NCBI GenBank assembly: GCA_022495995.1
Contig: JAFEMH010000163.1
Coordinates: 248,001 to 312,000 of the forward strand
Direction of reading: 5' to 3'
Length of the DNA stretch: 64,000 nucleotides
From: Adenophora triphylla var. japonica
Lineage: Eukaryota > Streptophyta > Magnoliopsida > Asterales > Campanulaceae
Shown: positions 1 to 61,393 of the stretch, piece by piece
How positions within the stretch are numbered: position 1 is the first letter of the stretch
Layout: each line of letters begins with the position of its first letter
The notes under the pieces: generated by a model
The model's database searches: none
What the model saw: only the letters and a program-made list of their open reading frames with translations
What the model was told of the DNA's origin: nothing
Program-made: the position numbers and the translations under genes

Positions 1-220
1 GTTGGACCGGGCTTTTTGATGACGATCCACCTGTCTGGGCGTTGGACCGGGCTTTTTCTTTGATGATTCACCTTTCTGGGCTCTGAATCATGTGAATTGG
101 GTTGATCTTTGGACCACTCGGTTCTCGGGCGACTGGTGCCGTACCGGGCGATTGTGCGCATGTCACGTTTGACTCGTTCCGTGACTTGCGGTACCGGTTT
201 TTCCACGTTTCCTTGCTAGT
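1..220. repeat. E1 3' spacer with a 41-bp direct duplication
   Basis: Positions 1-40 and 41-81 are two copies of one unit that begins GTTGGACCGGGCTTTTT and ends CTGTCTGGGC or CTTTCTGGGC. By position, upstream of the antisense PMD promoter, this is the E1 counterpart of the satellite-like spacers seen in E3, E5 and E6. The 3' LTR of E1 would lie further left, outside the window. Confidence 0.5.
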
Positions 221-315
221 TTATCATTTCCAAGGGTAAATGTGTCAAAATTTTGAACTTTGACGTTGCGTAGACGCTTATTGTCGAAGACAATTTTGTC
301 CTTTTCCAGAAGGTT

Positions 316-372
316 TATCTCGCGGCGGGATAAGATATACCGCGCGAGATATGTACTGTCGGGGCATATAAA
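316..372 (+). promoter_or_regulatory. Promoter of the E1 antisense PMD gene: paired CGCG dyads plus TATA box
   Basis: Two related dyads lie at 316-332 (TATCTCGCGGCGGGATA) and 336-351 (TATACCGCGCGAGATA), 20 bp apart start to start. A TATA box (TATAAA, 367-372) follows, about 150 bp before the PMD start codon at 521. The same dyad pair occurs in the E1 LTR, leader and DUF7745-like promoter. CGCG cores are known targets of plant CAMTA factors; binding here is not shown. Confidence 0.65.
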
Positions 373-520
373 CAGCAGCTCTAGCTCATTTTGAAAATAT
401 CCTCTTCAAAATTTCCCTCCCTAGCTCGAGCCAAGGTCGCCTTTTCTGTGGTTTTTTCGCGGATTTGCTTGGAGATTCTCCCCTCTAATCCATTCTCAAT
501 CCCTCCTTCCTCCATAATCC

Positions 521-2308
521 ATGGCTCAAGAACAAAGGAACCCGATTTTGGGTAGCTATTTGCTAGGGAAGGATTACCCTCGCGATGATCTTACCTTTGA
601 TAGGCACGCCCACATCTTTACCGCTGTCCGGGAGGGCTTGGTAAGAACTCTATCTTCACCTCTTGTTTCTTGTATTGCATTGATTTGAATCCCCTTTCCC
701 TTGAATTCAAAATTCCCTCAATGGCCTTTGTTCATGTTTGTGCTTAGAACTAGATTCCCCTTGCATGCGTTGATTTTGTGCATTTCTTTGGATGTTTGTT
801 GTTGCATTGTGTGCGTATGAGCCTCCTACACATCATGGATTGTAGGAGAGGTTGATTCGGATTATGATTGACATCCTTGGGCAAGCTTTTCTTGTACGTA
901 CGCCAAGTGTTCGATGAAATGCCCCAATGAAAAATTTTCTTCTATTTCATTGATTTCTTGACATGGAATGATTTCTAATGTTGCCCTCTCTGTTTTTCCT
1001 CTGTTTTGCAGTCGTATAAGCCAATTAAGAACTGTCGAGGGAGTACAAAGATGGCTAAGGAGGTGTGGGACAAGATCAAGGATCTTGATGGCGTTCGGGA
1101 TATGGTGGCCCAAACGGGTCTTCTGACTTTTGTTGACAATCTTAGGGGAATTAGGCGGACCCCCCAAGTTCTCCAGGCTATTCGGGAAAGGTGGTGGGAC
1201 ACTACCTACACTGTTCACTTGCGTTTCGGGGAAGCGACTATGACCCCGACTGACTTTCTGGCCATCACGGGATTGGAATTTATTGGCGATCCCCTGCCGA
1301 AGTTTCCGAATTATAAGCCCGCGAATCCAGCCGCGTGGAGGCAGTTGATTGGTTTCCCCCCCAACAAGGTCAAGGGGTTTGCTGCTGAGTTGACTCCCCT
1401 CCGGCGTCAGATTGAGGAGTATGCTGAGAAGCCAAATATGCATACTGATCGGTTGGTGAGGGGTGCCCTCTGGTATATCCTTTCCGAGACTATTTTTGCG
1501 AACCATTCTTCTACGGCCCATCTTTCTCTGTTACGTTTGTTGGTTGATCTGGATGAGGTGAGCGGCTACGATTGGGGCTCAGCGGGACTGGCCTTCTGTT
1601 ACCACGCCATGGATGAGGCGTGTAGGCACACCAAGGATACTCTGTCAGGGTATTCTTATGCCTGGGAGGTATGCCTCTTAATTCCGTTTCTGCTCTTTGT
1701 CTGTATGCTCTGTCTGTGTTCCCTTACTGAATCTGTTCTGTTTTCTTGTGCAGATATGGGGCTACACTGTCCTTGGGCTGTATAGGTTTGAGTTGGAGAG
1801 CCGGGCCCCTTTGTTTCCGGATATCAGGAGGTGGAGCCACCCGAATCGGACCGTTGATGAGGAGGAGGACCAGGATTGGACTTTGACGGTGGTGGAGGCG
1901 CGGGCTATACTGGACACCTTTGAGTACGAGAGACTGGGCCTGTATCCTTGGACCTTGTTAGAGATGGAGGTGCATCGCGCTTGGGATGCTACCGGGATGC
2001 AGAGGATGCTGGCGTCTTTGGAAGGGGACACCATGTATCTTGGTGAGCGGGTCTTCCCACAGCATGGCCGGGGTAGACTATCATACAGGGTGCCGGCGGA
2101 TCCGCCGAGGTCGATGTATCCCACCCACTCTGTTCCGGAGGATGATTATGCTAGTCTTTTGGTGGGTGATGCGGCGACGGCCTTGCGTGATCCCGGGGCT
2201 TCTTATGCGGAGTTTACGCCTCGGTTGATGGGTCCCCTCACGGTGGGGATAGGCGATCACATGCTCGTGGCTCCGCCTCTGCGCACGCTTCGGGTTCTTG
2301 ACCCCTAG
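521..2308 (+). CDS. Plant mobile domain (PMD) protein, antisense accessory gene of E1
   Basis: Three exons join in phase 0: 521-640 (donor GTAAGA), 1012-1668 (acceptor TTTTGCAG, donor GTATGC) and 1754-2308 (acceptor TGTGCAG, stop TAG), giving about 443 residues. Exon 2 shows typical PMD (aminotransferase-like) features: RWWDTTYTVHLRFGEATMTP followed by DFLAITGL, and later a leucine-rich helical stretch. PMD proteins such as MAIN and MAIL1 are nuclear and affect gene expression and TE silencing; copies also ride on transposons. The gene runs opposite to E1 gag-pol and has its own promoter. The stop at 2306-2308 precedes sequence that matches the end of exon 3 in the other PMD copies, but in another frame (to a donor at 2463), so the C-terminus is probably lost by a small frameshift. 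This is the least damaged of the three PMD copies. Confidence 0.75.
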
Positions 2309-3115
2309 CACTTCCTCCCAGGCTACCGGTTCTCTGCCTTTTGCCCCAGACTACGGCCCTCTGAGCTACACGTATATGATGGGGAGCATGCCGATGATGG
2401 GGCACATCCCGTCTCCTGATCAGGTTCCCGAGGGTTACCGCCTCCCGACTGATGTCTCTTCGGTATGTTTCTGTTTGTCTTGTTTCTCGTATTCGTCCAT
2501 ATAAGTTTATATGTCCGACTCCATCGAGCATCTTTTTTTCTTTGATTGTCGAGGTCACCATATCCGCGGCCGATTACAATCGTGGAGCGACCAAGATGGT
2601 GGGTTGATGGCTTTGGTGTCGGACCTGTCCCGAGAGGCCAGTTCCCCGAGAAGGCTTCTTCGGCGACCTCGACAGTGGCCTTGGCGGTGACCCCTACTTG
2701 CGGAGCCAAGAGGTCGAGGAGGGATGGTAGACCCCGTGGTGGTGATGGCGGAGGTGCTTGGCGGCTCGAGCGACTTGATGGCGTGATCCTCCACTTTTTC
2801 TTTATCCGATTATCTGTACATATTGGCCGTGTGGGCCCGGACAATTTTTCTTTCTTTTAAATTTTTGTTAGGAACACATAGGTAGCACAAACAATGGTCT
2901 TTCTTAATCCCTAATCCTAGGTCTAATTAGTTAGTTGATTAACTTTCTCCACTTTCCATGTTTTCGGAAATGTAATGGCCGTTAGGCCGCAATTTTGAGC
3001 ACGAGTATGGTGTTTTATTGCATGTTATGAATTGTACACACTTGGGTTTTTTCGAGACTTGCTTTGTCAAGTCGGGGCTAGATCTTGTTTGAGTAGAGCT
3101 GCTGTTGCTTTGCCG
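2309..3115 (+). other. Remnant of PMD last exons and 3' flank
   Basis: From about 2298 to 2462 a shifted frame ends in YRLPTDVSS before a GTATG donor, matching YTLPADST before the last intron of the PMD copy at 26581. A possible last exon begins near 2552 after CGAG, but it is interrupted by stops. A basic stretch (AKRSRRDGRPRGG) near 2707-2745 may be its remnant in another frame. From about 2860 to 3115 I see nothing coding. Confidence 0.45.
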
Positions 3116-3121
3116 TAGGGA

Positions 3122-3216
3122 TATCTCGCGCGAGATAAAGTGTCTCGCACGAGACACGCTACCCGAAGAAATCTCTTCCTTTTTCGAACGAGATTTTGAC
3201 GGTTTTACCTATAAAA
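3122..3216 (+). promoter_or_regulatory. Promoter of the E1 DUF7745-like gene: paired CGCG dyads plus TATA box
   Basis: The perfect 16-bp palindrome TATCTCGCGCGAGATA (3122-3137) is followed by the relative TGTCTCGCACGAGACA (3141-3156), 19 bp start to start. A TATA box (TATAAAA, 3210-3216) follows, about 100 bp before the ATG at 3318. Motif and layout match the PMD promoter at 316-372. Confidence 0.65.
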
Positions 3217-3317
3217 TCACCACAGTAGTCCGGCCGGATAACTCATTCTAGCCTTTCAAACTCTAGAGATATCCTGTTAGGGTGAAACTCTTGTCTTCTT
3301 CTTCAACCACATGATCC

Positions 3318-4823
3318 ATGGCTTCCAAGGAGATTGCCCCAACGTCCATGATTGTCGATGATTTTTCTTTGTCCTCTGAAGTGATTGCATCTTTCAAGCA
3401 AGCATCAAGGGATTTTGTAAGGTCATTTCGCAACCGGTCTCGCAATAAGTTTATCGCGAGAATTCGGATTTAGAATTCTTTTCACTTTGAAGAACCTCCA
3501 ACCGGATTGGAAGTTATTGCGGGGTCTTTGCTCGATTTTGGGATCCCTCTATTCATCTTTTCAATTTTTCTTTGAATGAGATGGTGCCTACTGTGGAGGA
3601 ATTCGCCATTATCTTGGATATGCCTTTGGTAGTGAAATTTCTGTTCCTAAGTATCATAGGAATCATTCGGAGGCTTTGAGCGAATTGTTAGGGATCCCCT
3701 TGATACTTGCTATGGGTTGGTTCACCGCAAGTGGGTTGATTGCTCTTCTTTTCGGGACGCTTCGGCGGTGATTACGATGATGACGCTTTTCATGTCCATA
3801 AGCGGAATTTTAAAACTCTTTCTCTTTTCGGAGATGTTTTGTTTACGTGCGGGGACGGCTTGGTCGATTCCCAGTGGTGGAAGTTGTTACGCGAGGCTAG
3901 GAAACGTTCTAGGAACATTATTCCGCTAATCTTGGGTGAGACCCTTCATGGTCTTGATGAGGCTGCATAGGATTGGCGTCATGACTCAAGGAGTCCCCTC
4001 CTGGTGACTATTTGGCTTAGGGAGTATCTCAAGTTGATAGGTCCCCGTTGGAATATTCTCCTTTTACATATCATACGCGAAAGTTGTTGATCAAAGATCT
4101 TTCGGCGGATGAATGAAATTTGAGTTGATTGCGAAGGCCGAAGCGCAATATTCTCTGGTGTCCACCTTATTGGAGGTTAAACAAGTATGTTGCCAATACC
4201 AAGGGTTTTGAAAGGGTTGTTCTTCCGGGTTTGCGAGATTCCTCCTTTTACTTTGCCAAGCGGGTGCTCAGTCGGTTTGGTCGACGGCCGGGACACTTAT
4301 CTTTTCGAAGGAGCTTCTCGTGAAGTGTCTTATATTGGTGTAGAGTTTGCGCAGTGCTAGCTCAAGCATGGGGTGAAGGAACTAATCGGGACCGTTGGTC
4401 GAACCTTGGGACATTTAATGCAAGCATCTTCTGTCGACAAATATTTGGATTGGTTCCTCCATACCGGTCATCCTAGTGCGAGAGAAGATTGATGATTTGC
4501 GGCTTTCATTGCTAAGAGATTCTTTTGTAGCTAGCGGTATCTTGCGAAGGAGCGAGGCTCGGTGCGATCCTGCTAATGTGCGAACTGATCCAACTCAGGA
4601 TTTTCTTGATGGGGATTGGTACGAGAGGCGAGGCAAGGGAATGCCTGGAAAGACGCAAGCTTTGGATAGGCCTCATGTCTTCAAGAGATTGTCGGAATCT
4701 GCCTTTGATCGTCTCGACTCTGTTTTTGACCGTCTCGAGGGATGTTACGCTTTGAGAGGCTCAAGCGCAAGGAGGATCACGACGACGGTGGAGACCATGT
4801 CCGCCGGCCAACCAAGTCAATGA
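3318..4823 (+). pseudogene. DUF7745-like retrotransposon-associated gene, degenerate (E1)
   Basis: An ATG at 3318 opens about 50 codons and then the frame breaks. Recognisable pieces in shifting frames are PTVEEFAIILDMPL (about 3590-3632), a block containing IIPLILGETLHGLDEA (about 3917-3967), WLREYLKLIGPRW (about 4013-4052), LPGLRDSSFYFAKRVL and an open C-terminal stretch at 4476-4823. The same order of motifs occurs in the gene at 46900-48212. I assign it to the plant DUF7745 group, proteins of unknown function that are common in retrotransposons. It is antisense to E1 pol and lies between the pol end and the PMD gene. Several frameshifts and a TAG at about 3968 make it a pseudogene. Confidence 0.55.
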
Positions 4824-5022
4824 AAGGCTAGATCTTTAGGAGTACCAAGAGATTGCTTTGATAGATCAATTGTTTACGCTTTATTAGTATTATTTTTTTC
4901 AAGTTTGTTAGCTTAGCAAATTAGTCGTTGTGGTTAGAATTTCCCTATTGTCATTAATGAAACGCATTCGATTAATAAAAGGGACAACTTTGATTTGTTT
5001 ATTTGATTAGACCGAACCCGAA

Positions 5023-5081
5023 GGCTGCCTACGTTCCTCTTTTACAGCAATTAAACAAGAGGCTCAGGTCCAACGTAGTTC
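5023..5081 (-). other. Conserved GAACTACG...ACGTAGGCAGCC block, 3' of E1 integrase
   Basis: On the minus strand it begins GAACTACGTTGGACCTGAG and ends GAACGTAGGCAGCC. It is one of nine copies in the window, all in the sense direction of their host Tat element. E3 has it at the same place after integrase (46421-46477). Conservation between divergent families suggests a functional RNA or DNA element; the function is unknown. Confidence 0.6.
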
Positions 5082-5124
5082 ATTTTTGAGAAAAGGACAA
5101 AATATGGTTCCGGGCCGTGGGGTA

Positions 5125-5190
5125 ATCTCGCGCGAGATAAGGCCCCCTTCTTTCTTTTTTTTTTTTTTTTTTCTTTTTTTTTTTTTTTAT
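5125..5190. other. Single CGCG palindrome and long T tract
   Basis: ATCTCGCGCGAGAT at 5125-5138 is an isolated copy of the E1 dyad. It is followed by an almost pure T run from about 5152 to 5189. The run is an A tract on the pol sense strand, close to where the pol message would end. Confidence 0.5.
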
Positions 5191-5216
5191 GCACACCCTT
5201 TCTTTTGCCTAGACCG

Positions 5217-5294
5217 CCCCTTCGGGTTTTCAATCCAGCGGGCTTCTTTTCTTGTGCTAGCTCTAATTTTTTGCCTAAGTTGTCCTTTCCGGGA
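5217..5294 (-). repeat. Two GNRA-like hairpin units after E1 integrase
   Basis: On the minus strand the units read TTGAAAATCCCGGAAAGGA (hairpin 5283-5294) and TTGAAAACCCGAAGGGGCGG (hairpin 5217-5226). Each holds a short C/G stem around a purine loop. They correspond to the three CCCT-GAAA-AGGG units after E3 integrase at 46215-46354. Confidence 0.55.
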
Positions 5295-5335
5295 TTTTCA
5301 ACCTAGCGAGCGATTTGTTCTTAGGGGGCCAAGTC

Positions 5336-6560
5336 ACGCAAAATACTTCTTGAGCTTGTCCATGTTGACCGGCTTCGGTAGTTGATCTCCGTCTAAGTCT
5401 ACCAGCTGAAGGGCTCCCCCAGAGAATATCTTCTTCACAATGTAGGGTCCTATCCACCTTGGTCCCCACTTGCCTAACGGGTTGAAAGGTCGGGACGATG
5501 CTCACGGAGCACCGAGTCGCCTACTACGATGTTCCTTGTCTTGACCTTTTGTTGAAAGCTCTTGCTATTCTTCTTTGGTAAACTTGAGTGTGTTCGGTCG
5601 CTTTCAACCTTCTTTCGTCCAACGGGGCTAGCTCTTCGTATACGCTTTCTAGCCGGTCGACTTCATTCACTTGGTTTTCTAGGAGAACTCTTAGTGATGG
5701 TATTTCCAATTCTATCGGTAAAGACGGCCTCCATCCCGAATGTGAGGGCGTAGGGAGTTTCTCCCGTAGGCATTCGGACTGAAGTGCGGTACCCCCATAG
5801 TGCGAATGGTAGCTTGTCGGGCCGGTCTTTTCCGGTGGCGCCACTTTTCGATGATGGTCTCGATTGTTTTGTTCGCGGCTTCAAGCTTGCTCCTTTTGTT
5901 TGAGGCCTATAAGGAGATGACTTGTGTCTCGTGATTTTGTACTCGGTCGGTAGGCGATCGGTTTCCTTCTCGAAGTGTGACCCATTATCGGATATCATCT
6001 CTTGTGGAACCCCATATCGGCGAGATGATGTTGTGCTTGATGAATTACGCAACCTTTCGGCATTCGGAACTTTGTAGGAGGCGGCCTCGACCCATTTAGT
6101 GAAATAGTCGATGGCTACTAGGGCAGCGTGTCCGTTGGCTCTGCAGGTGTGATCTTTCCAATCACGTCTATCCCCCATGTAGAGAATGGCCAAGGTGAAG
6201 TCATTGGGTACAGCAACGAAGGCGGTGCATGCTGAAGATTGGCGTGTATCTGACACTTGTGGCACTTCTTGACCATTTTGGTACAGTCGGCTTCCATGGT
6301 CAGCCAAAAGTACCCTTGTCTGATGATCTTTTTGGTGAGCATGTTTCCGCTCATGTGGGTTCCACATATGCCTTGATGAACATGGTCCATTATTTCCTGG
6401 GCCTCTTCTTCGGTGGCGCAAAGGAGGTTTCCTTGGGAATGTTTCTTGAATAGACGGCCAGCAGTGATGACGTATTGGCGGCCCAACCTTTTAAGGGCGA
6501 CCTGAGTCTTCAGGTCTGTCTCAGGCGGTATGGTTCCATCTAGGATGAAATACCAAATGT
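5336..6560 (-). pseudogene. E1 integrase (Tat-type), frameshifted
   Basis: In element order there is an HHCC zinc-binding region (HVHQGICGTHMSG, then CHKC), the catalytic core with IDYFTKWVEAASYKVPN and ISDNGSHF carrying the first two catalytic aspartates, and SPYRPQTKGA, after which the frame shifts through the region of the catalytic glutamate. Further on come FALWGYRTSVRMPTGETPYA, a second shift, LDERRLKATEHTQVYQRR and finally a GPY-type C-terminal module (RWIGPYIV) ending with TGA at about 5336. Integrase inserts the cDNA into chromosomes. At least three frameshifts make this copy inactive. Confidence 0.85.
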
Positions 6561-7600
6561 CGTGGTACCAAGGTTTCCCTTCGGAGTTTTCAACAGCGGC
6601 ACCTTTGGATAACCATTTGCCTTTGCAGTCGTGAAGATCTATAACGGCGCAGTATGCAGGAGTTGCACGCCGTGTTATTTTGAAGGGTTTAACTGCTTTT
6701 CCTTTAGGGATTTCGACCAAAGAAGCAAGTGTGGCTAATGCGTCCGCAAACCGATTTTTGTCTCTGGGGAGATAGTGGAATGAGACATCCTGAAATTGTT
6801 GCGCCAATTCTTGGAGGTGGGCCTTTGTATCTTTGAAGTGTTGGATCTTGGACCCTCTACTTCTTCAATGTCGATTGATGATCAATTGGGAATCCCGAAT
6901 ACCTCGAGTTCGGTCACGTTGCGTTCTAGGGCTGCCTCAAGCCCCGCTATGCAAGCCTCGCATTACGCGGTATTGTTGGTGGCGTCAAAGTCAAGACGTG
7001 CGCTAGTGGAGTGTAGATGTCGTTAGGGTCTACCAATAACATTCGATGCCAAACCCTCTCTTGTTGGCTGCGCCATCGAAAAATAATTGCCACTTATTTT
7101 CTTCTATGCTTAGGATGTCCTCATCGGGGAATCGCGGGTCTTCCCCCTTCACTTCGTCGCAAGGAAATTCGGCCAAGCGATCTGCGAATACACTCCCTCG
7201 ACGGATTTCGAGTGACGTAAGTGATATCATACCCCGCGAGCATGAAGTACCATTTGGCTAGTCTCGAAGACAAATTTGATTTGTCTAGGATATATTTCGG
7301 TGGATCCATCTTTGCGATGAGACGGACTGGAAAGGCTTCCATATAGTGCTTTAGCCTTTGTGATACCCGGACGAGAGCGGCGCATGACTTGTCGAGTGGA
7401 GAGTAGTTGATTTCATTTGCCTTGGAATCTGCGGCGACAAAGTAGATGGCATTTTACGTGTGCGAAGGCTGTTCTTGAGCAAGCATAGCCCCTAATGCGT
7501 TGTCCGTGCTTGTGAGGTATAGCTTCAAGGGCTTCTCTTTGTGTGGTGGAACCGGGATGGGTGGGGAAGTCAAGTAGTGCTTAACTTCCTCGAATGCTTC
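6561..7600 (-). pseudogene. E1 RNase H region, two RNase H-like domains, frameshifted
   Basis: The retroviral-type RNase H/tether is marked by MDPPKYILDKSNLSSRLAKW and GYDITYVTRN (7121-7342 in one frame). It is followed by a second, archaeal-type RNase H: WQLFFDGAANKRG with its catalytic Asp, an EACIAGLEAA-type segment near 6960 on the minus strand, and FHYLPRDKNRFADALATLAS near 6710-6790. Two RNase H domains in a row are a known feature of the Tat lineage. Frame changes near 7230 and 7030 break the reading frame. Confidence 0.8.
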
Positions 7601-8870
7601 TTGACATTCTTCGGTCCACTCTTGAGGTGCGTTTTCTTAAGCGGCTTAAAGATGGGGTCGCACATTGTAGTCGGTTGATTAATGAATCGGCGATATATTG
7701 GAGTACGCCCATGAATCCCTTTACTTCTTTACGTGTCCTGGGTGGAGGCATGTACGTAATGGCCTTTATCTTGGCGGGATCTGTTTCTATGCCGCGTTAC
7801 GTGACCATGTATCCCAAGACTTTCCCTTTGACTACTCCGAATGAGCATTTGGCGGGATTGAGTCTCATTTTGTCTTTGTCTCGGTCGATTGAAGAATTTT
7901 ACGAGATCTACTGAAGTGTTGGCCATCTGTCCCCTTGAGTGGATAATCATGTCGTCCACATACACCTCTATTTCTTTATGGATCATGTCGTGGAATAGTG
8001 TTGTGGCTGCCCTTTGGTAGGTAGCCCTGGCGTTCTTGAGACCAAACGGCATGACCGTGTAGCGAATGTTCCCCAAGGTGTGGTGAATCTTTGTTTTGTC
8101 TTTGGTCCTCTTACGCCATGAGGATTTGGTTATACCACTGCGAACCCGTCGACGAATGAGCGGACCTCGTATCTTCTTGTGGCATCGACCAACATGTCTA
8201 TGTTTGGTAGCGGGAAGTCATCTTTAGGGGATGCCTTGTTCAAGTCTCTGAAATCAACACAGACTCGTATTTTCCCGTTCGACTTGGATACTTGCACCGT
8301 GTTTGCTAACCATTCCGGATATTCAATCACCTTGATGAACCCTACATTCAAGAGTTTCATGATTTCCTCTTTCACTTGCATTGACCATTCCGGCTTGATT
8401 CTGCGTAGTTTCGCGGCGGCTTGGCGTTGGGTAGCAGCGGTATCTTGTGTTCTACAACTAACTGATTCAACCCAGGCATATCTCTGTAGGACCAAGCGAA
8501 GACGTCGATATATTCTCTGAGGAGCTGCGTCAAGGTTTCTCTGTCTTCCCCCTTGAAGAAACTGCCGATCTTTGTTTCTCTGGGGTCCTCCGTTGTCCCA
8601 AGATTAACTGTTTGCATTTCCTCGTCGTCAACAGGGCCATTCTTTCCACAACGACCTACTTGCTTAGCTAATTCTTTTAAGATTTGTTCGTTTTCTTGAT
8701 CTATCTCATCGTATGATTCATTATTAACGTGTTCGTTATATTGATTATTATTAGTTAATTCATCATTTACGATGTTAGCAATCTCAGGGTACTCGGAAAG
8801 ATCAAAGTTTTCATTAAGGAAGTAAGGGAATACATGTTCAGCCACCGCCTCGATTTCCTCTCGAGTGAGT
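7601..8870 (-). pseudogene. E1 reverse transcriptase with N-terminal linker, frameshifted
   Basis: The linker (VNLGTTEDPRETKIGSFFKG, then YIDVFAWSYRDMPGL) is continuous from 8845 to about 8440. RT follows in another frame: IKPEWSMQVKEEI, RVCVDFRDLNKASPKDDFPL, NIDMLVDATRRYEVRSFVDG (catalytic Asp region). After a stop at 8130 the palm continues as YTVMPFGLKNARATYQRA and IEVYVDDMIIHS with the YVDD catalytic motif. The 3' part (about 7600-7728) is fragmentary. The RT copies RNA into cDNA; several frameshifts make this copy dead. Confidence 0.85.
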
Positions 8871-9667
8871 TCATCGGAGGTGGAGCACAGCTTCTAATGT
8901 AAAAGTTGCGGGGCCTATCTTCCTGCGAGGGTGGGGAGTGCAACCAAGCTCTTTGATCATGAAGTCTTCATCAACAAGCTGGTCCCCGGTGACGTGCCGG
9001 TTTAGAATTGGCTCATCACATTTACGTATTAGTCTTGTATAGTTGGTAGTTGGAGTGTCCCCCTTGGATATTGCATGGATGCTTTGTCTTCCTAACCGGC
9101 ACGGAGTCTTGGGCTTGTCGCGGCATGTCTTCTCCCAACACAAAGTCCCATTCACTTGTCATTTACGCCTTCGTGCCCCACAAATCATTAGGGATCGGTG
9201 GGACGGATTACATTTCATCACGGAGATGCATCGCGATCGCTGAAGATTTCAAAGCCCGGTTGGCGTTTTCCTTTATCATCGATCCATGGTTACGAAAAGA
9301 TAAAGTAGGGAATACTTTCCCCTTCTCGAACAAAGTATCCATTGAGTGTCTTTCGATATGGTTTGAGGTTGCAATCCTTGGACTTTGGGTCATTGCAGCC
9401 TTTGTATGAGGTTCCTTCCCACTTGATTTGAGTGAAGCCCCACTCTTCTATGTCATCTTCATCGTGGATGGAGATGTCGTACCCTAGTCCATGCTTTGTG
9501 TGAGGCGGGGGGACCGGTGGTGGTTCCGTTATTCCTTGTAAGTGCTTTCCAAGCCCCAATCCAGGAAAGTACCCTTTTGCTGGTGTCATTCTCCAGACAG
9601 GAAGGCTTCCAGAAAACCTAAGTGCCTTTGAGTAGTCGTTCTCGTTGTAAGTTTCCATGACATTCAC
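8871..9667 (-). pseudogene. E1 pre-RT region with a G-patch-like motif
   Basis: An open stretch at 9290-9667 contains GYFPGLGLGKHLQGI followed by KHGLGYDI. This is the glycine pattern of a G-patch, a motif known downstream of protease in some retroviruses and seen in Tat elements. A second piece at 8871-9155 leads to the RT linker in another frame. I find no retropepsin D-S/T-G or D-G-G motif between gag (9865) and here, so E1 seems to lack protease. Confidence 0.6.
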
Positions 9668-9864
9668 AGTGCTTTCTCTCTCAATCTCAAAGTATTAATC
9701 GGAATTGAAAAGGGAAATACTGACTAACTATTATTAAAAAGCAAACTTGGTACTCTTGCCCACAAATGAAGTCTTTAGGCAAGTAGTACCCGACTAAACT
9801 AAACTAGGCTACTAACCGTTTCTTTTGCAACTAAAAGTAAATAACTGAAATGAAAAGAGACTCC

Positions 9865-10807
9865 TCATTTGTTTGAACTCATCCAAACTATTCCACCACT
9901 TGGGCAAATTCCGATGGCGTCGCTGTCAATCAAGTCTTGGACTGCATTTTTCAGGTTGAAGCAATCATTGGTGTGATGGCCATTGCATTGATGGTAGTAG
10001 CAATAGAGGTGTGGAGATCGACCTTCCCTCTTAGGTTGGTAGCCTTCTATTGGCTTCAGCTTTCCGTCCTTGTGAAGACTTCTGAAAAGATGACCAAGAG
10101 TGATGTTTCCGATGTCGGAGAAAATCCTCCCCTTCCTTCGCTTAGCCATTTAGTTATGGAGGTCTCGGATATGGTTCTCGTAGTGTTGCACAAAGACGAG
10201 GTGGCGAGCCTGATATTCTTCCTCCATTTGCTCTTTGAGGTCATGGTAGAGGGTATTGAGGAAAAACTTGACCCTCTCATCCATGTAATCTTCAATGTGG
10301 GCTTCAAGGTTGATGCACTTTTGGGTCATAGTTTCAAGTTCGCTCTTGACTTCCTCGAGCTCTTCAATCAACATCTTTGTCTTTTCGGCTTGGATGGATT
10401 CTTCCATGTGATGCCACGAGTCATTGTCATTAATTTCTTTGCGGGGCTTTGGCAAGTTGAGTTTTGATGTCACTTAGCTCCTCTTGCACGGATGATCGCC
10501 CACTGTCGGAATCACTTTCCATCTTCCGAAAATCCCTAGCAATGCGAGTGGCGGGCAAATCAAAAGCTTCTCTCCAACCTTCCACGTGTTCCATTTCAGC
10601 GACAAGAGACTTGGTCAAATCTTGGAGAGTGGGTTGTCCACGGCTTTCCTTGGTCATGGCATGCCTTCCGGTAGACATTGTGTTGGGAGTCTTGGAGTTG
10701 AGTAGCTTCGGAAAACTGATAGAAGAGATGCAGATATCAGGTTCTAGCCCCAACGAGTCGGAAGCAGGCTTAAATGGCTCAGGCTCAAATTCAGCAAACA
10801 GAAGCAT
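9865..10807 (-). pseudogene. E1 gag, fragmented
   Basis: Three successive frames are used: 10807-10430, 10473-10150 and 10149-9865. The middle part is predicted coiled coil (IEELEEVKSELETMTQKC and following). The last part has a CCHC-like knuckle, CYYHQCNGHHTNDCF, as in the gag of E2. The usual Tat gag core (LKGSALTWF-type block seen in E2 and E3) is not recognisable, so it is either deleted or highly divergent. The first ATG lies directly after a CGCG dyad pair. Confidence 0.6.
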
Positions 10808-10808
10808 T

Positions 10809-10842
10809 ATACCGTGCGAGATAAGTAATCCCGCGCGAGATA
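10809..10842. promoter_or_regulatory. CGCG dyad pair directly upstream of the E1 gag start
   Basis: ATACCGTGCGAGATA (10809-10823) and ATCCCGCGCGAGATA (10828-10842) lie 19 bp apart, immediately 5' of the gag ATG on the minus strand. They are members of the E1-specific dyad set. Confidence 0.55.
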
Positions 10843-10963
10843 ATCACACGGAAAGTCGATTTTTATTTAGCCCTAATTTTTGGTCGGAACGGAAAGTCCG
10901 TTTTGAGGGGTTTCTAAGGCCTTTATCAGAACCTAACGACTAAGCAATCAATCCGATTTTTGT

Positions 10964-11090
10964 AAAACAAAGCCATGTAAGATTGTTTTTTTTTTTTTGA
11001 AGGATTATATGCACATTTTTCTTGAAGGGACATCCGAAAGGGACTTTTTCCGAATCCTTTCTTATTGTCAATTTTACATGGCTTTGTTTT
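10964..11090. repeat. Foldback element with 22-bp inverted ends
   Basis: AAAACAAAGCCATGTAAGATTG (10964-10985) is inverted at 11069-11090 with one mismatch, enclosing about 83 bp that include a T run. TTTTTG on the left and CAAAAA on the right extend the dyad imperfectly. It could be a small foldback/MITE-like insertion or a leader RNA hairpin of E1. No clear target duplication is seen. Confidence 0.55.
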
Positions 11091-11450
11091 GATCAAAAAC
11101 AAGAAAAGATCACCGAGTCAAAACCGACCGGTCACGGAGTGATCCTAAAAAGTCAATCTACATGAGAATGTGGCGATGCAGGGCTGGAAGGCTAGGCTCC
11201 CCGCGATATGACAATCTAAGTGGATTGAATACGCGGAGTGGGATTGTCCAACTTCGGAGAGACCGGCGACTAGGTGGTTACCGTCATCCGTCCTTAGTGT
11301 GGGTCCCGGGTTTATAGAGGGTATGCAGTGCAATGACAGTTATAGTATGATGTGCGCGTGTGTGATAGTCAATCTATGTGATAGAGTAAAATAGAAAGTT
11401 TTATTATTTTTTTGAAAGTTAAAAGAGAAAACAGATAGTGGCCGCACCAA

Positions 11451-11502
11451 GTGGTTTCCTACGTTTCTCCCAATCTAGGAAGACTCAGGCCGTCGTAGTT
11501 CC
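11451..11502 (-). other. Diverged copy of the GAACTACG...TACGTAGG block in the E1 leader
   Basis: On the minus strand it begins GGAACTACGACGGCCTGAG and ends GAAACGTAGGAAACC. This is the only copy located in a 5' leader rather than near the 3' end. Confidence 0.5.
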
Positions 11503-11777
11503 ACATAAAGAGAGATAAAGAGAGATAAATAATTTAATTTACAACTCCCGAATCCCTAATGGACCGGACTTTAATTAAATAAAACCCAATCACACGCTTC
11601 ATAAATAATAATCAATTATTTAAGGAAAATAAAGGTCCAAGTTCTACACCTTAAGGGAGGCCTTAAGATGCGGGAACTCTGCGAGATAATGAATTACAGG
11701 ATCCCCCTTGCATGTTCGGCTCTCGTCTTGGATTACGAGCGAAACAGAGAAACCAAAAAACAACCAGATGGAAGCCC

Positions 11778-11813
11778 TATCTCGCGCGAGATAATGATAT
11801 CTCGTGCGAGATA
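11778..11813. promoter_or_regulatory. CGCG dyad pair in the E1 leader
   Basis: The perfect palindrome TATCTCGCGCGAGATA (11778-11793) and its one-base variant TATCTCGTGCGAGATA (11798-11813) are exactly 20 bp apart. They lie about 115 bp inside the primer site. As RNA each could form a hairpin; as DNA each is a two-fold site. Confidence 0.65.
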
Positions 11814-11909
11814 TCTCCCATCCGAGAACGAGAAAAAATTCGAATTTTACAAAATAGATTGAAAAACCTCTCTTTTAATTTTGACGCAAGTTTAAGCCTC
11901 TTAATTTTC

Positions 11910-11929
11910 GGTCCCAGGCGGAGTCGCCA
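11910..11929 (-). other. Primer binding site of E1 (tRNA-Arg type)
   Basis: The minus strand reads TGGCGACTCCGCCTGGGACC, starting 3 nt inside the LTR end. The matching sites of E2, E3 and E4 read TGGCGACTCYGCTGGGGA, the site used by Ogre/Tat elements and assigned to tRNA-Arg. Confidence 0.75.
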
Positions 11930-11932
11930 CTT

Positions 11933-12947
11933 TGTAGCGTTGTGAGAAAGAAATTACGGTTCTTTTTATTTTTATGAGTCGCCACCTATATTATTTGATT
12001 GGAAACATAGAAAAACCATTTGAGAGATTTGAGTTCGGGGCTTAGGTTATGAAATGGGTAGGTTTAGAAGGCATCCATTTCACCCAATTCGGAGATCGGT
12101 CTTGCTAAAGAAAAGAGAGGTTTTTCAAAAGAAGAAGTAAAAAACGAATTCAAATACTACAAATAAAGGTCCATTTGACGAGGTCAAACGGAATGTAGAA
12201 TCGATTGCTTCGAGACCGTCTCCATGATTTGGAGAGGCTCTAGGCCGATCCAAGATTCTATGGACTTATACCACTCTAACAATCAATTAGAAGGAAGATT
12301 AGGAATTACCTTGCGTGAGGTGATTTCCAAGGGCAGTTTTACTCAAGTTTAGAGTCGACCCTTCACACGGACAGAGCTTTGCCTTGGTCCTTGGTTTGGA
12401 GATTGATGCTTGTTTATCAACAAGGTTGACAAACAAACTATGAGGTGAGTTTTAGGGTGATTTTGAAGAATCCTTTCAGGGAAAGAAAACGACAAAATGT
12501 GTGTGTGTTGTGTAAATTCGCGGTCCGGGACCTTCGACCTTCAACCTCTTGAGCCTTGGAAGTCACCAAGTATTTATAGAGGTTGGATATGAAGAAGTGG
12601 AGAGTTAAAACCCTATCAGATGGTTCTAGACCTCCTCTCCCATTGGTTGGCCGGAGAGATAAAGTTTTATCCTGGAAAGAGGTTGAAATCGACGAGGAAC
12701 TCGTCGTGTCGCAATCTGCGAGAGGAGATATCTCGCGCGAGACACGCCATCTCGCGGCGAGATATTGCTCCTGTGGACAGTTTTGTCCTTTCCTCGTTAT
12801 CTCGTATGCAGTTTAGTCCCAAACTAACGGTAGTTAGTCAAAACTTTAACGAAACATGACGAAATGGTGGATTTCTACTTCTTGACTCAAAGCGAGACTT
12901 AGAGTGGTATAAGTATGATCCGATGTGTTCAGAATGGGGTGTCTACA
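11933..12947 (-). mobile_element. 5' LTR of E1 (1015 bp)
   Basis: On the minus strand the LTR starts TGTAGACACCCC and ends ACAACGCTACA, giving TGTAG...CTACA termini. The primer site lies 3 nt inside. The outer side abuts the gag of E2, interrupted at 12948, so E1 is inserted there; the expected 5-bp target repeat on this side is 12948-12952 (CCTTA). The other LTR is outside the window. The LTR holds a promoter and no coding sequence. Confidence 0.75.
12571..12764 (-). promoter_or_regulatory. E1 LTR promoter: CGCG dyad pair and TATA box
   Basis: The dyads are at 12729-12744 (TATCTCGCGCGAGACA) and 12749-12764 (ATCTCGCGGCGAGATA), 20 bp apart. The TATA box is TATAAATA on the minus strand (12571-12578), about 150 bp downstream. 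The dyad variants closely match those of the antisense PMD and DUF7745-like promoters of the same element. Confidence 0.65.
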
Positions 12948-15326: not shown

Positions 15327-16431
15327 GTATAAATTAGTGTCTTAAATCCTAAGTACGGTTGGGAAAGGAGAAGCCTTTATTCATACTAACTATACCTTGG
15401 GGAAACCTAAGGATACAACGTTCAAATTACACTAAATGCCTTGGTCTGAAATATATAATAGGTAATGATACCTAACCAAATCCTAACATCATTATGGAAC
15501 GAAGTGGTTGTCCAAATTTTCTGGGGAAATTTGGGCAGCATAACGGGTCTTTTCGAAGAATTTCGAAGAAAAATCCGGCATGACCTCTCGTCGGTGCACG
15601 TTGACAATGCGGCATGATCTCTGGTTTAGAACACGCCACGGGAGTGACATGTCCCCATGTGAAATCATGTTACGTTGGCAACATGCCCACAAGATGCGAG
15701 GTTTTGGGGAAGGTATAAGGACCTACGATATGTTTCAAAAACAATTCATTTTGTTGTAATAAAAACATTGTATCAAAACCAACCGTGGGTAAGGTTTAAG
15801 TGTGGTGCCACCTATAACGCACTAGGGGGTTAGGTTTGATTTCATGCGCTCAAGCGTAGGCGACATTCATCACCGTCCGCGATGCCGTCAATCGCACCCG
15901 AGGGTTCTAAGTCTAAGTGGTGTAGTGTGCGGATGACTATATTCTTTTATTTACAAAAAAACAAGATTTTTTTTTATATTTTTTTTATTTTTGAAAAGAG
16001 GAAAGAAAACACACACATACACACACACTCACAGGGAATATAGGGAACAACAATCAACTGAGCCACATTCGATTCAAGGGACTGCCCTCAAACCAACCTT
16101 CTGAATATCTGTTCAGTGGCCACTCCTTGTCGCGTGACACAGGATATCAAGGGACAGAGATGTCGCACGACCTGGGTGGTCACTGAACCAGCATTCTGCA
16201 ATCATCAAATCGGCCCCTGCCTCTCCATGGCAAGAACAAAGCTAGAACATATAATAGCACAACAAAATGGCCACAAGGCACACAAGGATCACAAGTCTCA
16301 ATTCATATCAACAAAATGCATGAACCACAAATGATTATCAAATATGCACACAAAGACAGATGTATTGGATGTTTAATTTAATGAAATCTTGACCCACTTA
16401 ACATTTGAAAAACAGGTTTTCAAAGTACACC
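15327..16431 (-). other. E2 leader, noncoding
   Basis: About 1.1 kb between primer site and gag. I see no convincing ORF. It carries the E2 TGTCGCGTGACACA motif (16128-16172) and short CA-rich tracts near 16010-16030. Confidence 0.6.
16128..16172. promoter_or_regulatory. E2 motif pair in the leader
   Basis: TGTCGCGTGACACA (16128-16141) and the diverged TGTCGCACGACC (16161-16172) are 33 bp apart. The motif recurs in the E2 LTR. Confidence 0.5.
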
Positions 16432-16451
16432 TATCCCCAGCGGAGTCGCCA
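16432..16451 (-). other. Primer binding site of E2 (tRNA-Arg type)
   Basis: The minus strand reads TGGCGACTCCGCTGGGGATA, one base inside the LTR end. Confidence 0.85.
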
Positions 16452-16831
16452 CTGAATGTGCGCTCGCCCTCGCGAAATTTTGGGTTTCACGGTGAAAGAG
16501 TAAAAAAGAGAGTCGCCATGCCATGCTTAAGAGGTGCACTTTAAAAAACCTATGAAAAGAGAATGGGTTCGGGGGTCAAGTTATGTGTTGGGAAGAACCG
16601 AGAGTTCACCCAGCACGCCTCGTCCGTAGACGAGTCTTTCAATTAAACATCCAAGCAAATCCAAAAGTGTGTGCAAATATTGATAATGAACAAGTGTGCT
16701 GAACATACATTTTATTGATATGAATTGAGACTTACAACTTGTGAACCAATTTATTTAGGGAGGCCACATCCCTACTACTACAATCTAGAACAGATTACAA
16801 GGGGAAAAGGTTTCTGGAGACAGGCACGATA

Positions 16832-16909
16832 TGTAGCATGACACATGACACAGGTGACCGCATATGTCGCGTGACACAGGAACCTATGAATAATGTGTCG
16901 CGTGACACA
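16832..16909. promoter_or_regulatory. Triple E2 motif within the LTR (transcribed part)
   Basis: Three copies at 16832-16845 (TGTAGCATGACACA), 16865-16878 (TGTCGCGTGACACA) and 16896-16909 (TGTCGCGTGACACA) are spaced 33 and 31 bp. They lie downstream of the LTR TATA box, so they are in the transcript. Confidence 0.55.
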
Positions 16910-17514
16910 CAGAGACCATCTGCAGAAACTTACACAATGAATGCCAGAATCAACAACAACTAACACAGATCTAATTAATTGAACAGATTAGATGCGAAAT
17001 ACAAAAATAACAACAAATCGACCCCGGGAGTGTGGATATGGGTAGATCCACACCCCCTCGAGGTTTAAACACCAAATCTAAACAAGTATTCAACAATGAA
17101 AGCTCAATTACACAGATTAGACAATTTAAACAGAGAGATTGCGATTGGGATTCAGTAATCTAGACAGATAGAGTCTGATTACTGAATCCTACCAAAATTA
17201 AACAATAGAATTATGAAGAATTGAGTAGAAGGAAGAGAGAAGAGGGAGTTTGAGATTCGTTACCCTTATTGCTTCCACGAGTTCTGTATCAAGTTAGATA
17301 TAAAACCCTTCAATTTGCTGCTTCTGGTCTTGGGAGGATTGATGCAAAGGATCCAAGTGGTTTGGCTTAGGAAGGGGCTTGAATTGGAGGGAATTGGGGT
17401 AGATTGAGGGTAGGAGAGAGAGAGAATTATGTTTGGGGCTTTTTGTTACGACGCAATTTCTGCAGAGTAACAGTAGGCTGAAGTTGGGATCTATTTCTGA
17501 GAGGGGGAGGGTCT

Positions 17515-17600
17515 TATTTATAGGCTGTAGTTAGTGGTCATCTTGTGTCACACGACTATACGCAACCACTTTCCATGCCTCGACTTGTCGCGTGACACAA
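17515..17600 (-). promoter_or_regulatory. E2 LTR promoter: inverted motif pair and TATA box
   Basis: TATAAATA on the minus strand is at 17515-17522. Upstream lie TTGTGTCACACGAC (17543-17556) and TTGTCGCGTGACACAA (17585-17600), which are inverted relative to each other. This has the same architecture as the E1 and E4 LTR promoters but a different motif. Confidence 0.6.
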
Positions 17601-17860
17601 GGTGGCCTCAACCGTTTTTGGCGCCAAAACCAGTTTTTGGAATATTTAGGCCTAAATACCTAAAAAGTCCAAAAAGGTTTATTCCTAACAAGTCCCTTGG
17701 CATGAGCAAGGTACCAAAAGGTACTTCCTTCGCGGGAAACTTATGAAATGTTTCCGGAAGTCTCGGGATAGGCCGAGAATTTACCAAAATGCCCCTTAAT
17801 GCAGTTTTATTATATTAAAATGCATCTAAAAGGGTTGCGAATTGGATTGGCGTACTTACA

Positions 17861-24254: not shown

Positions 24255-24330
24255 TATTTATACGCTGCAGTGTGCTTCCTAAAGAAGCCGCCCGACGTTA
24301 ACCTTCAGGAAAAGAAGCCGTCCAGCGTTA
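24255..24330 (-). promoter_or_regulatory. E4/E6 LTR promoter: GCC-type motif pair and TATA box
   Basis: TATAAATA on the minus strand is at 24255-24262. Upstream are AAGCCGCCCGACGTTA (24285-24300) and AAGCCGTCCAGCGTTA (24315-24330), exactly 30 bp apart. AGCCGCC is the known GCC box of plant AP2/ERF factors; use here is inference. Confidence 0.65.
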
Positions 24331-25250: not shown

Positions 25251-25294
25251 ATCCTTGGAATTTTGACGATTAATGGAGGAGTCACCTTAAGAAA

Positions 25295-25710: not shown

Positions 25711-25727
25711 TCGGAGGCTGTCACCTG

Positions 25728-26396: not shown

Positions 26397-26468
26397 AAGC
26401 CGCCCGGCATGAGATGGGGAAAAAGAAGCAATCCGGCTTGAATCCTAATTTCACCAGATTTATTTAAA
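26397..26468 (+). promoter_or_regulatory. Promoter of the E6 antisense PMD gene: GCC-type motif pair and TATA-like box
   Basis: AAGCCGCCCGGCAT (26397-26410) and AAGCAATCCGGCTTG (26426-26440) are 29 bp apart, in the style of the LTR pair at 24285-24330. TATTTAAA (26461-26468) is the likely TATA box, 113 bp before the ATG at 26581. The minus-strand PMD promoter at 51486-51562 has the same TATTTAAA form. Confidence 0.6.
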
Positions 26469-30587: not shown

Positions 30588-31786
30588 AGTAAATGTTTTC
30601 CAAACTTCTTCTCTCATAAGAAACGTTGGAAACATTTACAAGGGTTAGCCTTCCGTCACGGGTCCGATCTTTGTGCTTGTGCAATTTTTCTTTTTTCATG
30701 CATCCTTTGTGTTATTTTTGGCTTGTGCATACTCTGAATGATAAACAGATACGTCTCTGAAGCTGAAAGTTACCAAAAATCCCTGGAAAAATAGTCTGGA
30801 AAGGCAGCAATTTGGAACCTGGAAAACTGTTGGTTCTAGCCGGACGGCCGTGCGGCTTTATCAGCAGTTCCACCAGGACTGTTTTCATCTGAGGTTAATC
30901 AGGGAACCGTGGCAATTTGGGACTATTCAGTCTTGAATCTGGCCTGGTTCCAGAAAATTTATGTGCTTATGTGATGCATTCTTCCCCGCCCCAAAACATT
31001 TTTTTAAAAACACGTGATGAAAAATCTCTATTTTAACTAAAAAAAGAATTTTTTAGGAGACCGCACACTACGCGCACTATATATCTCCTGTACACTTTTG
31101 CACGCATGTCCTTAACCCGAGATGGTTGTTCAGTTGCAGTCACGGACAGTGTAACGATGCTCCCGGGCACGCACAGAATCATCCCAAACTCCCCATGGCA
31201 GCCTGTGTCGACCACTGCACTAGTCCGTGTCACAGTCTTAAACCCGTGACTTTTTGGTTGGTTTTGTCTAGACCGTGTCATACAGCTTCGTCGTATACCT
31301 CCGTAAAGTCAAACCCGAGCCCATGCTAGAGTCAAGATTCCTCGCGCAAGCAAAGCAATGCCAAAATTTCGTTAGGCAAAATTGGCAAAATCTTGACCTC
31401 GGCATTGACCTTGACTTTGAATTGCACGGAGTATGTAAAATTCAAACCCGAGCCCAAGCTAAAGTCAAGATTCCTCGCGCAAACGAAGCCATGCCAAAAT
31501 TTTGTTAGGTAAAATTGGCAAAATCTTGACCCTGACATTGACTTTGACTTTGATTTGCACAAAGTAAGCAACAACGCTCAATGTGACACCGTGTCATTCG
31601 ATTTTTAATGTCCAACCTATGCCTATTATTTTCCTTGGACAATGCCAAAGTCAACGTCTATCGCGCAAGTGAAGCCATGCCGAAATTTCGTTAGGCAAAA
31701 TTGGCAAAATCTTCACCCCGATATTGACATTGACTACAATCCGCATCGCTCATGCGTTAAAATTCCTATGATCCACTAGACCCTAG
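30588..31786 (+). other. E3 leader with GCC-type motif and hairpin repeats
   Basis: AGCCGGACGGCCGTGCGGCTT (30838-30858) carries overlapping inverted GCC-type motifs. Two near-identical 67-nt units at 31331-31397 and 31464-31530 start GTCAAGATT and end AATCTTGAC, so each can fold into a long stem; a third decayed copy lies at 31650-31714. Short ORFs here overlap these repeats and are not convincing. Confidence 0.6.
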
Positions 31787-42261: not shown

Positions 42262-42298
42262 GCACCGATTAAATAAACGTGTTAAAAATCACAACAAG

Positions 42299-48298: not shown

Positions 48299-48400
48299 TT
48301 AAATACAAAGACCCTTCCTTGGCTTTATTTGCAGAAAATCAGTCCATGCAGAAGACCCAGCCGTGTGGCCTTTTTTTCTCAGGTCCTAGTCGGGCGGCTT
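48299..48400 (-). promoter_or_regulatory. Promoter of the E3 DUF7745-like gene: GCC-type motif pair
   Basis: On the minus strand AAGCCGCCCGAC (right) and AAGGCCACACGGCTG (left) have equivalent GGC positions at 48396 and 48367, 29 bp apart. A TATTTAA box is at 48299-48305, about 90 bp before the ATG at 48212. Confidence 0.55.
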
Positions 48401-51485: not shown

Positions 51486-51562
51486 GTCTATTTTAAATAA
51501 ATCTGGTGCGCAAAGTCTTAGACTGTGCGGCCTCTTTTTCTCCATCTCTAGCCGAGCGGCCT
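51486..51562 (-). promoter_or_regulatory. Promoter of the E3 antisense PMD gene: GCC-type motif pair and TATA-like box
   Basis: On the minus strand AAGGCCGCTCGGCT (51562-51549) and GAGGCCGCACAGTCT (51533-51519) are 29 bp apart. TATTTAAAATAG follows at 51498-51487. Confidence 0.6.
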
Positions 51563-55109: not shown

Positions 55110-55185
55110 TATTTATAGGCAGCTTTGTGTTTCCTAATGAAGTCGTGCGGCATTAACGTTTGGCAAAAGAAGTCGTGCGGTCTTA
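55110..55185 (-). promoter_or_regulatory. E5 LTR promoter: motif pair and TATA box
   Basis: TATAAATA on the minus strand is at 55110-55117. AAGTCGTGCGGCATTA (55140-55155) and AAGTCGTGCGGTCTTA (55170-55185) are exactly 30 bp apart, as in the E4/E6 LTR, although the core has changed from GCCGCCC to GTCGTGCGG. Confidence 0.65.
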
Positions 55186-60420: not shown

Positions 60421-61393
60421 CGACCGAGAGAGAAGAACGCTCCTAAGGGTCTAGTGGGTCATAGGAACTTTTGACGCACGAGGGATGCGGATTATTGTCA
60501 AGGCAATGCCAGGAAAGTCTCGTCTTTCAGCCTTAACGGAATTTTGGCAGAGTTCTGCTTACGCGATTGACGTTTTGACTTTTGGCATTTGTCCAAGAAG
60601 ATAATAGGCATGGGTCAGACGGTAAAAGCCAAATGACACGGTGTCACATTGAACTTTGTTGCATATTTTGCGCGAGTCAAATTCAAAGTCAAGGCCAGGT
60701 CAAGATCTTGTCAATTTTTCCTTGACGGAATTTCGGCAGAGCTCCGCTTGCGCGAAAGATCTTTTGATTTTTTGGCGTGGACTTGGGCTTGACTCTTACG
60801 TATCCCGTGCAGGTCAAAGTCAATCTCGGAGTCAAGATGGTGCCAATCTTTCCTTGGCGGAATTTCGACAGAGTTTCGCTTGCGCGAAGGATCTTGACTC
60901 TCGACATGGGCTAAGGTTTGACCTTTACGGGGGTATGCAATTAGGCTATATGACACGGTCTAGACCAAAAACCAACCAAAAGTCACGGTTTTAAATGTGT
61001 GACACGGACTGTGGATTGGTCGACACTGGCTGCCATGGGGAGTTTCGGATGATTTCGTGCCCGCCCGGGAGCATCGTAATGCTGTCCGTGACTGCAGCTG
61101 AACAACCACCCCGGGTTAAAAGGACGTTCATGCAAAGTGTATAGGATATAATGGTGCGCGTAGTGTGCGGCCTCCTAAAAATGTTTAGTTTTGAGTTAAA
61201 ACAGAGATTTTCAGATATGTGTTTTAAAAGGAATGATTTTCGGGACGGGGGAAATGCAACAGTTAAGCACGTAAATTTTTTGGAGCCCGGTCAGTCTTGG
61301 AACTGAATAGCCCCAAGCTGCCTAAGCTACCAGATTAACCTCAGATTGTGTCCTGGTGGAATTGCCCAAAGAAGCCGCCCCGCTAGGATCTGG
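60421..61393 (-). other. E5 leader, interrupted by a copia element
   Basis: It matches, inverted, the E3 leader (30840-31786), including CAAGATC-type hairpin repeats around 60670-60900 and a GCC-type motif AAGCCGCCCCGC near 61371-61382. The match ends at 61393, where the copia LTR begins, so the primer site and 5' LTR of E5 are outside the window. Confidence 0.65.

Follow-up and report, generated by a model that had tools for sequence, protein, structure and literature searches.

Why should one short palindrome recur, in pairs, at several gene starts within a single retroelement? The question is raised by a 64,000-nucleotide stretch of contig JAFEMH010000163.1 of Adenophora triphylla var. japonica (positions 248,001 to 312,000; hereafter the window), which contains nested Tat-like long terminal repeat (LTR) retroelements in plant host DNA. 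In one of these, E1, a sequence-only reading had noted the palindrome before an accessory gene with a plant mobile domain (PMD), before a DUF7745-like gene, in the leader and in the LTR. The palindromes are probably cis-regulatory promoter elements of Tat-like LTR retrotransposons, which would be read by a dimeric, family-specific protein. Several Tat-like families have each their own tag beside their gene starts, suggesting a way for a family to mark and control its own copies.

All of the TATCTCGCGCGAGATA-like dyads listed for E1, five pairs and one single, are real, some lying one base from the position first given (Table 1). They do sit at control points (the PMD, DUF7745 and LTR promoters and the leader), but the LTR pair does not adjoin its TATA box, and the pair placed at the gag start lies in the leader, about 130 bp before the candidate gag ATG (judged by eye). 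The spacing of 19-20 bp was confirmed (start to start 20, 19, 19, 20 and 19); at 10.5 bp per turn this makes 1.8-1.9 turns, so that the dyads of a pair share a helix face only roughly. Bases around the pairs differ, as had been said, and simple duplication is a very unlikely source of them. With a free centre of 2 nt, TATCTCGCGCGAGATA-type sites number nine at 0-2 mismatches and 11 at 0-3 in the window, all within E1 (in 20 dinucleotide shuffles, sites at 0-3 mismatches averaged 1.7 and never exceeded 4), and no site at ≤ 2 mismatches was found in the window outside E1. None of six E1 clusters falls in a coding block (blocks drawn partly by eye; chance about 0.003). A looser blind scan of the window for dyad pairs, run without shuffle control, returned 17 clusters, including three of the five E1 pairs and one of E2, the remainder lying elsewhere.

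By our own count, all 11 E1 sites retain both outer CpGs of the core, and the middle varies (CG, CA, TG or, at sites 316 and 12748, 3 nt), which suggests that the E1 dyad consists of half-sites around a free centre. Both arms are altered jointly, to TGTCTC..GAGACA, at 3141 and in a related LTR at locus L010. CpG retention as a sign of selection on the dyads was dropped because the whole of E1 keeps its CpGs (observed/expected 0.89).

The sequence-only reading had expected the pair to be restricted to one family, which was not supported: other Tat-like families show this design too, each with arms and spacings of another kind. E2 dyads are TGTCG-N2-CGACA-like (TGTCGCGTGACA-like), 31-33 or 40 bp apart, and E3 dyads AGCCG-N2-CGGCT-like (RGYCGNNCGGCY-like), 29-30 bp apart; the CG-N2-CG core is common to all three and the arms are family-specific. 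Counting pairs in the window over all 64 symmetric NNNCGNNCGNNN arms gave TCT 7 (E1; combinations at three loci), TGT 4 (E2), TTT 3, AGC 2 (E3) and 0-1 for the others, the pairs at 316 and 12729 being missed because of their 3-nt centre. Set against 30 shuffles, the window has 21 E1 pairs (mean 0.9, maximum 3) and eight E2 pairs (mean 0.1, maximum 1), four of the latter being E1 pairs.

Outside the window, 202 kb of the same genome from contig C1 and 80 kb from C2-C5 were searched (282 kb; 346 kb with the window). An E1-type pair (≤ 3 summed mismatches) occurred once, in an E1-related LTR and 20 bp apart, so the spacing held as anticipated. This LTR (L010, on C1) is 71% identical to that of E1 and both its dyads are TGTCTC..GRGACA; the C2-C5 batch contained no TCT-arm pair. 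E2-type pairs, counted at spacings of 12-60 bp with ≤ 3 summed mismatches, were found in L011, L014, L015, L019, L023 and L025, with spacings of 33 and 40 bp dominant and 23, 34, 35, 46, 48 and 53 bp rarer. Other arms with repeated pairs were AAA (32, mostly arrays), GCT (8), GCA (5), GCG (4) and AGG (3).

Two further observations come from the same sample. At L009:1733-1982, within an element that resembles E3 in its inner part (88% alike), GTCCGTACGGAC occurs four times; two copies are 31 bp apart, and the LTR TATA box follows 21 bp after the last. Additional CG-N2-CG palindrome pairs (AGGCGCCCGCCT, GCGCGACCGCGC, GCTCGGCCGAGC), mostly 19-25 bp apart, lie outside assigned elements (L010:1411-1590, 2251-2354 and 4415-4520; L020:2940-3145; L025:2660-2880).

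The dyads often stand at a set distance from TATA boxes. Of 129 LTR-type TATA boxes in the window and loci L007-L027, 20 are preceded by a CG-N2-CG dyad whose end is 15-24 bp upstream, compared with 1, 2, 6, 7, 7, 8, 6, 3, 5, 6, 4, 3 and 4 of 129 in 13 other distance bins; L010 5928 and L022 2562, among the 20, appear to be chance hits. In L028-L035, which yielded no primer binding site, none of the 48 LTR-type TATA boxes has a near dyad. Four decoy words gave 0, 0, 0 and 1 at gaps of 20-25, and ATAAAT, which overlaps TATAAAT, gave 7. The CG-core class makes up six of nine perfect dyads at 15-24 bp versus 57 of 668 overall; the near-TATA signal belongs to this class. Eight LTRs were anchored by a primer binding site, seven of them with an upstream TATAAAT, and six of these seven carry a dyad 17-23 bp before TATA (two weak, with a score of 5 of 7, and two, L012 and L020, from one family); the exception is the E1 LTR, which has no near dyad. 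At five of the nine tabled promoters the pair lies 21-23 bp from TATA, and at the E1 PMD promoter 14 bp (17 for the 12-base core). Strict dyads precede TATAAA at gaps of 16-23 in 11 of 334 cases (5 in the bin 16-19, 6 in 20-23).

A CG-N2-CG dyad with family-specific arms thus usually ends about 16-23 bp upstream of TATA at LTR and accessory promoters, and a second copy often lies further upstream at a family-specific distance. In the proposed mechanism, a protein binding as a dimer, or as two dimers side by side, may recognise the arms in the DNA near TATA and, once bound, may activate or de-silence all promoters of the element together. Copies transcribed in leader or LTR, in some families built into long hairpins, may act in RNA too.

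Several results weigh against this interpretation. The 20 near-TATA dyads come from about eight families (own grouping) and are thus not 20 independent events. Bare TATAAA gives a weaker contrast (19 of 334 versus 4-18 in other bins), perfect dyads taken irrespective of sequence are not concentrated at 15-24 bp (with a 2-nt spacer, 8 of 129 there and 1-9 in the remaining bins), and a strict-pair test found four of 64 TATA-like sites versus nine of 600 random positions. For strict dyads, the bin at 108-111 (7) is as large as the near bins; it consists of two L010 sites and the second dyads of the L012, L013, L018, L019 and L020 LTR promoters, whose first dyads fall into the near bin or lie no more than 23 bp from TATA. 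The LTR pair is 149 bp from TATA in E1 and 163 bp in its L010 relative, and the DUF7745 pairs are also distant (52 bp in E1; about 53 bp to TATTTAAT in E3, by eye). Most E2 copies are without one core C. E3-type pairs number 12, barely above shuffles (mean 4.9, maximum 10), and split into five at promoters, two in a leader and five outside E3 control points. E3 pairs are nevertheless 29-30 bp apart at all five tabled promoters (two LTR, two PMD, one DUF7745), and the E3 case is supported by the place of its pairs rather than by their count. Among the accessory genes described below, no fitting dyad was found upstream of the L023 DUF7745 or the second L019 PMD (+ strand), the upstream lists also contain unrelated dyads, and the L028 dyad was noticed post hoc, not predicted. 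All of this comes from a single genome.

The same dyad recurs at separate genes of one family. Searches of the 282 kb with PMD pieces of the window found relatives in L013, L015, L019 (two) and L028, and DUF7745 relatives are present in L013, L019, L023 and L028; seven of these nine accessory-gene matches have a fitting dyad upstream. In L013, perfect GTCCGGCCGGAC is present in the LTR promoter and upstream of both accessory-gene matches, by 832 bases for PMD and 156 for DUF7745. In L028 (C2-C5 batch), ATCCGCGCGGAT precedes the PMD match by 1099 bases and the DUF7745 match by 157, and no further perfect copy of ATCCGNNCGGAT occurs in 346 kb. At L019, DUF7745 is preceded by GTCCGGCCGGAC at 151 bases and one PMD by TGTCGCACGACA at 580, and L015 has TGTCATACGACA 528 bases before PMD, the same as in its LTR. 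An AT-rich TATA-like stretch (TTTAAATT and similar) follows the accessory-gene dyads by about 19-23 bp (by eye). Fourteen of 15 perfect copies of GTCCGNNCGGAC in 346 kb are in LTR promoter regions or before PMD/DUF7745 genes, the exception being L018 9508. Separately, GTCCGGCCGGAT, which differs at one base from the GTCCGNNCGGAC dyad found in other families, is located at 3228-3239 of the window, just downstream of the E1 DUF7745-like TATA box.

It is very improbable that the dyads are a by-product of local duplication or of chance in CG-rich elements. Although some sites do lie within tandem repeats (L014, L015, L019, L020, L025), the dyads exceed shuffles and decoys, their flanks differ, and they keep the same place in diverged copies and appear at separate genes.

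Two special cases of the promoter interpretation concern which protein reads the dyads. Host factors are commonly used by plant retroelement promoters, and as-1 lies near TATA. A host transcription factor family is a possible reader, at somewhat less than an even chance, in the way that TGA bZIP factors act on as-1 of the cauliflower mosaic virus (CaMV) 35S promoter, where TGACG palindromes stand with 4 bp between them (PMC4677692). The likeness to as-1 and ocs is that of two neighbouring palindromes in a plant viral promoter; the differences are the CG-N2-CG core with family-specific arms, spacings of 19-20, 29-31 and 40 or more, and the recurrence of copies at accessory genes and in leaders. 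Neither TGACG nor CGTCA is present in any of 15 promoter units with 30-base flanks. Arms diverge strongly between families (TCT, TGT, AGC, GTC), so one known factor would hardly fit them all. None of 143 TATAAA sites in the C2-C5 batch has a strict dyad within 160 bp upstream, which in this small sample gives no sign of use at ordinary genes. The E2F site, TTTCGCGCGAAA, is likewise a CGCGCG-centred palindrome, but its second and eleventh letters differ from those of the E1 dyad, in which outer TA/TA bases recur, and it does not suit the remaining families. As identities, E2F and auxin-response sites were rejected, since they fit single families at best.

Alternatively, the element's own PMD or DUF7745 protein might bind the family dyads and remove silencing, which is somewhat unlikely. 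The model is VANC, proteins that carry DUF1985 and bind short noncoding motifs, protein and target differing together between families (PMC5735166). Here too short, family-specific noncoding motifs occur in an element encoding a divergent accessory protein, with a candidate DUF1985 domain in E1; the E1 motif is confined to noncoding regions of the window. PMD of E1 and PMD of E3 are 38-43% identical, while the dyads of the two families have different arms. Both families encode PMD and DUF7745-like proteins and carry dyads before both genes, an arrangement repeated in L013 and L028. The E1 PMD exon gives a DUF1985 match (E = 1.8e-4, 21.9 bits), which is below the Pfam curated cut-off of 35.1, and a profile search found none in the E3 pieces. 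An anti-silencing function has been suggested for PMD proteins that MULEs have captured (PMC5418596). However, the VANC motifs as printed in PMC5735166 (YAGTATTAY, AGTTGTCC) are non-palindromic and in tandem arrays, whereas the present ones belong to LTR retrotransposons and are known from sequence alone. AlphaFold modelling of the PMD exon gave no usable structure (pLDDT 38). Comparison of the exon with solved structures by sequence gave only five weak matches (E 0.18-0.73), and none of 568 candidates in a protein search with it scored at 0.001.

An extended form of self-recognition, in which the dyad would be a private family address read by its own PMD/DUF7745, the family would switch on or de-silence only its own copies and the same palindrome would be used in the RNA leader, is unlikely. 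Beside the PMD promoter or LTR of E3, at 25286-26340 and 56025-56970 of the window, lie arrays whose units are 42, 51 and 29 bp long and contain inverted repeats (GTTATC..GATAAC, CTATC..GATAG); these are possibly further binding arrays, like VANC targets.

Palindromic leader hairpins after the primer binding site are known as retroviral dimer initiation sites. Both E1 and E2 have a palindromic leader hairpin, here judged from computed folds, with the difference that U3, accessory promoters and sequences preceding TATA boxes carry the same palindrome as well. Pairing between the 20 bases on either side of a unit was scored on the transcript strand for 29 units and was significant (p ≤ 0.005) in six of 11 transcribed units (E1 leader, E2 leader and four in L025), one of 15 promoter units and none of three unassigned units. 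Transcribed copies are thus often parts of hairpins, promoter copies less so. In a run on both strands with 18 bases, pairing of the E2 LTR unit was seen on the strand opposite to the transcript (0 of 500), and that of the E1 LTR unit was weak (0.036). By fold z-score the leader units were the best in the scanned regions (E1 -5.6, E2 -6.4), the E1 LTR unit was close (-5.2), and all five E1 units, promoter copies included, folded better than shuffles. Rfam gave no match at gathering score in window bases 1-18000. The E1 and E2 leader copies, being within longer inverted repeats, may act as RNA hairpins. That the palindromes act mainly in genomic RNA, in dimerisation or packaging, is quite unlikely: four of the six paired units are from one locus, transcript-strand pairing is rare among promoter units (the E2 LTR unit pairing on the other strand), and promoter copies hold their distance to TATA.

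Two features fit an assignment to Tat-like elements. Four TGGCGACTCCGC-type primer binding sites (0-2 mismatches over 18 bases) are present in the window, a type which we take to be a label of the Tat/Ogre lineage of Ty3/gypsy. By the criteria in PMC6317226 this lineage is defined by a second RNase H domain or reverse transcriptase phylogeny, and a PMD extra open reading frame (ORF) is present in 57% of Ogre elements; such an ORF was found in E1 and in E3. PMD matches are 70.1 bits in E1, 66.1 in one E3 copy and 31.7, just below the cut-off of 34.9, in the other. The E3 DUF7745-like gene (- strand; 24.3 bits, cut-off 26) and the E1 integrase (25.2 bits, cut-off 32.6) are sub-threshold. The gag-pol part of E1 is read from the minus strand, its LTR spans about 11936-12949 (ends judged by eye), and its PMD gene and broken DUF7745-like gene are on the plus strand. 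By eye, E1 is nested within E2 and E2 within an E3-type element; CpG observed/expected (E2 0.63, E3-type pieces 0.50-0.79) agrees only partially with this order.

E1 looks young by CpG content, yet its genes at 3300-10690 are cut by many frame breaks, which may reflect either rapid decay or insertion/deletion errors in assembly. An unrelated LTR element (LTR pieces 95% alike) is inserted in pol of an E3 copy at 35970-43800, and the 64-arm scan listed no CG-core dyad pairs within it. Searches with reverse transcriptase and integrase pieces found no relative in viral contigs, nor did the reverse transcriptase find one in prokaryote contigs. The exact E1 pair pattern was met in six stretches of viral contigs, of which the three with matches inspected looked like local repeats.

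Table 1. Positions in the window of the dyads and associated features of E1, E2 and E3.
Feature	Position	Strand	Context or basis
E1 dyad pair, PMD promoter	316-332/336-351		gap of 17 bp between 12-base core at 338 and TATAAA at 367
E1 dyad pair, DUF7745-like promoter	3122-3137/3141-3156		TATA at 3209/3210
Third, weaker E1 dyad TTTCGAACGAGA	3182..3193		16 bp before DUF7745-like TATA
Single E1 dyad	5124..5139		between convergent DUF7745-like gene and pol
E1 dyad pair, leader before gag	10808-10823/10827-10842		sequence
E1 dyad pair, leader	11778-11793/11798-11813		within extended inverted repeat
E1 dyad pair, LTR	12729-12744/12748-12764		upstream of TATA at 12579 (-)
E2 dyad pair, leader (33 bp)	16128..16172		within longer inverted repeat
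E2 dyads 16832/16865/16896 (33, 31 bp)	16832..16907		transcribed part of LTR
E2 dyad pair (40 bp)	17546..17597		22 bp upstream of LTR TATA 17523 (-)
E3 dyad pair (30 bp)	24286..24327		23 bp upstream of LTR TATA 24262 (-)
E3 dyad pair (29 bp)	26398..26438		22 bp upstream of PMD TATA 26461 (+)
Overlapping E3 dyads, leader of + strand copy	30838..30857		sequence
E3 dyad pair (29 bp)	48359..48399		upstream of - strand DUF7745-like gene
E3 dyad pair (29 bp)	51521..51561		21 bp upstream of PMD TATA 51499 (-)
E3 dyad pair (30 bp)	55141..55182		22 bp upstream of LTR TATA 55118 (-)
E3 dyad, leader of - strand copy	61373..61384		sequence
E1 accessory gene with PMD	979..2308 (exon ORFs 979-1785 and 1682-2308)	+	PF10536, E = 2.5e-19
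Broken DUF7745-like gene of E1	3315..4830	+	piece 3491-3676 versus PF24924, E = 8.8e-6, 25.4 bits, cut-off 26
E1 primer binding site core TGGCGACTCCGC	11918..11929	-	sequence match

Tandem palindromes are already known, as in as-1 (PMC4677692). Narrow literature searches found no description of the CG-N2-CG dyad and no report combining LTR retrotransposon, palindrome, upstream of TATA and plant; none combined DUF1985 with the plant mobile domain, and TCTCGCGCGAGA was found in print in one bacterial paper. PMD is called a domain of unknown function in PMC8616336, and in PMC5418596 its anti-silencing role is only speculated. A defined candidate target for each family, at several genes of the element, turns the role of PMD and DUF7745 into a question of binding and reporter assays, and the dyad would serve as a sequence signature for finding Tat promoters.

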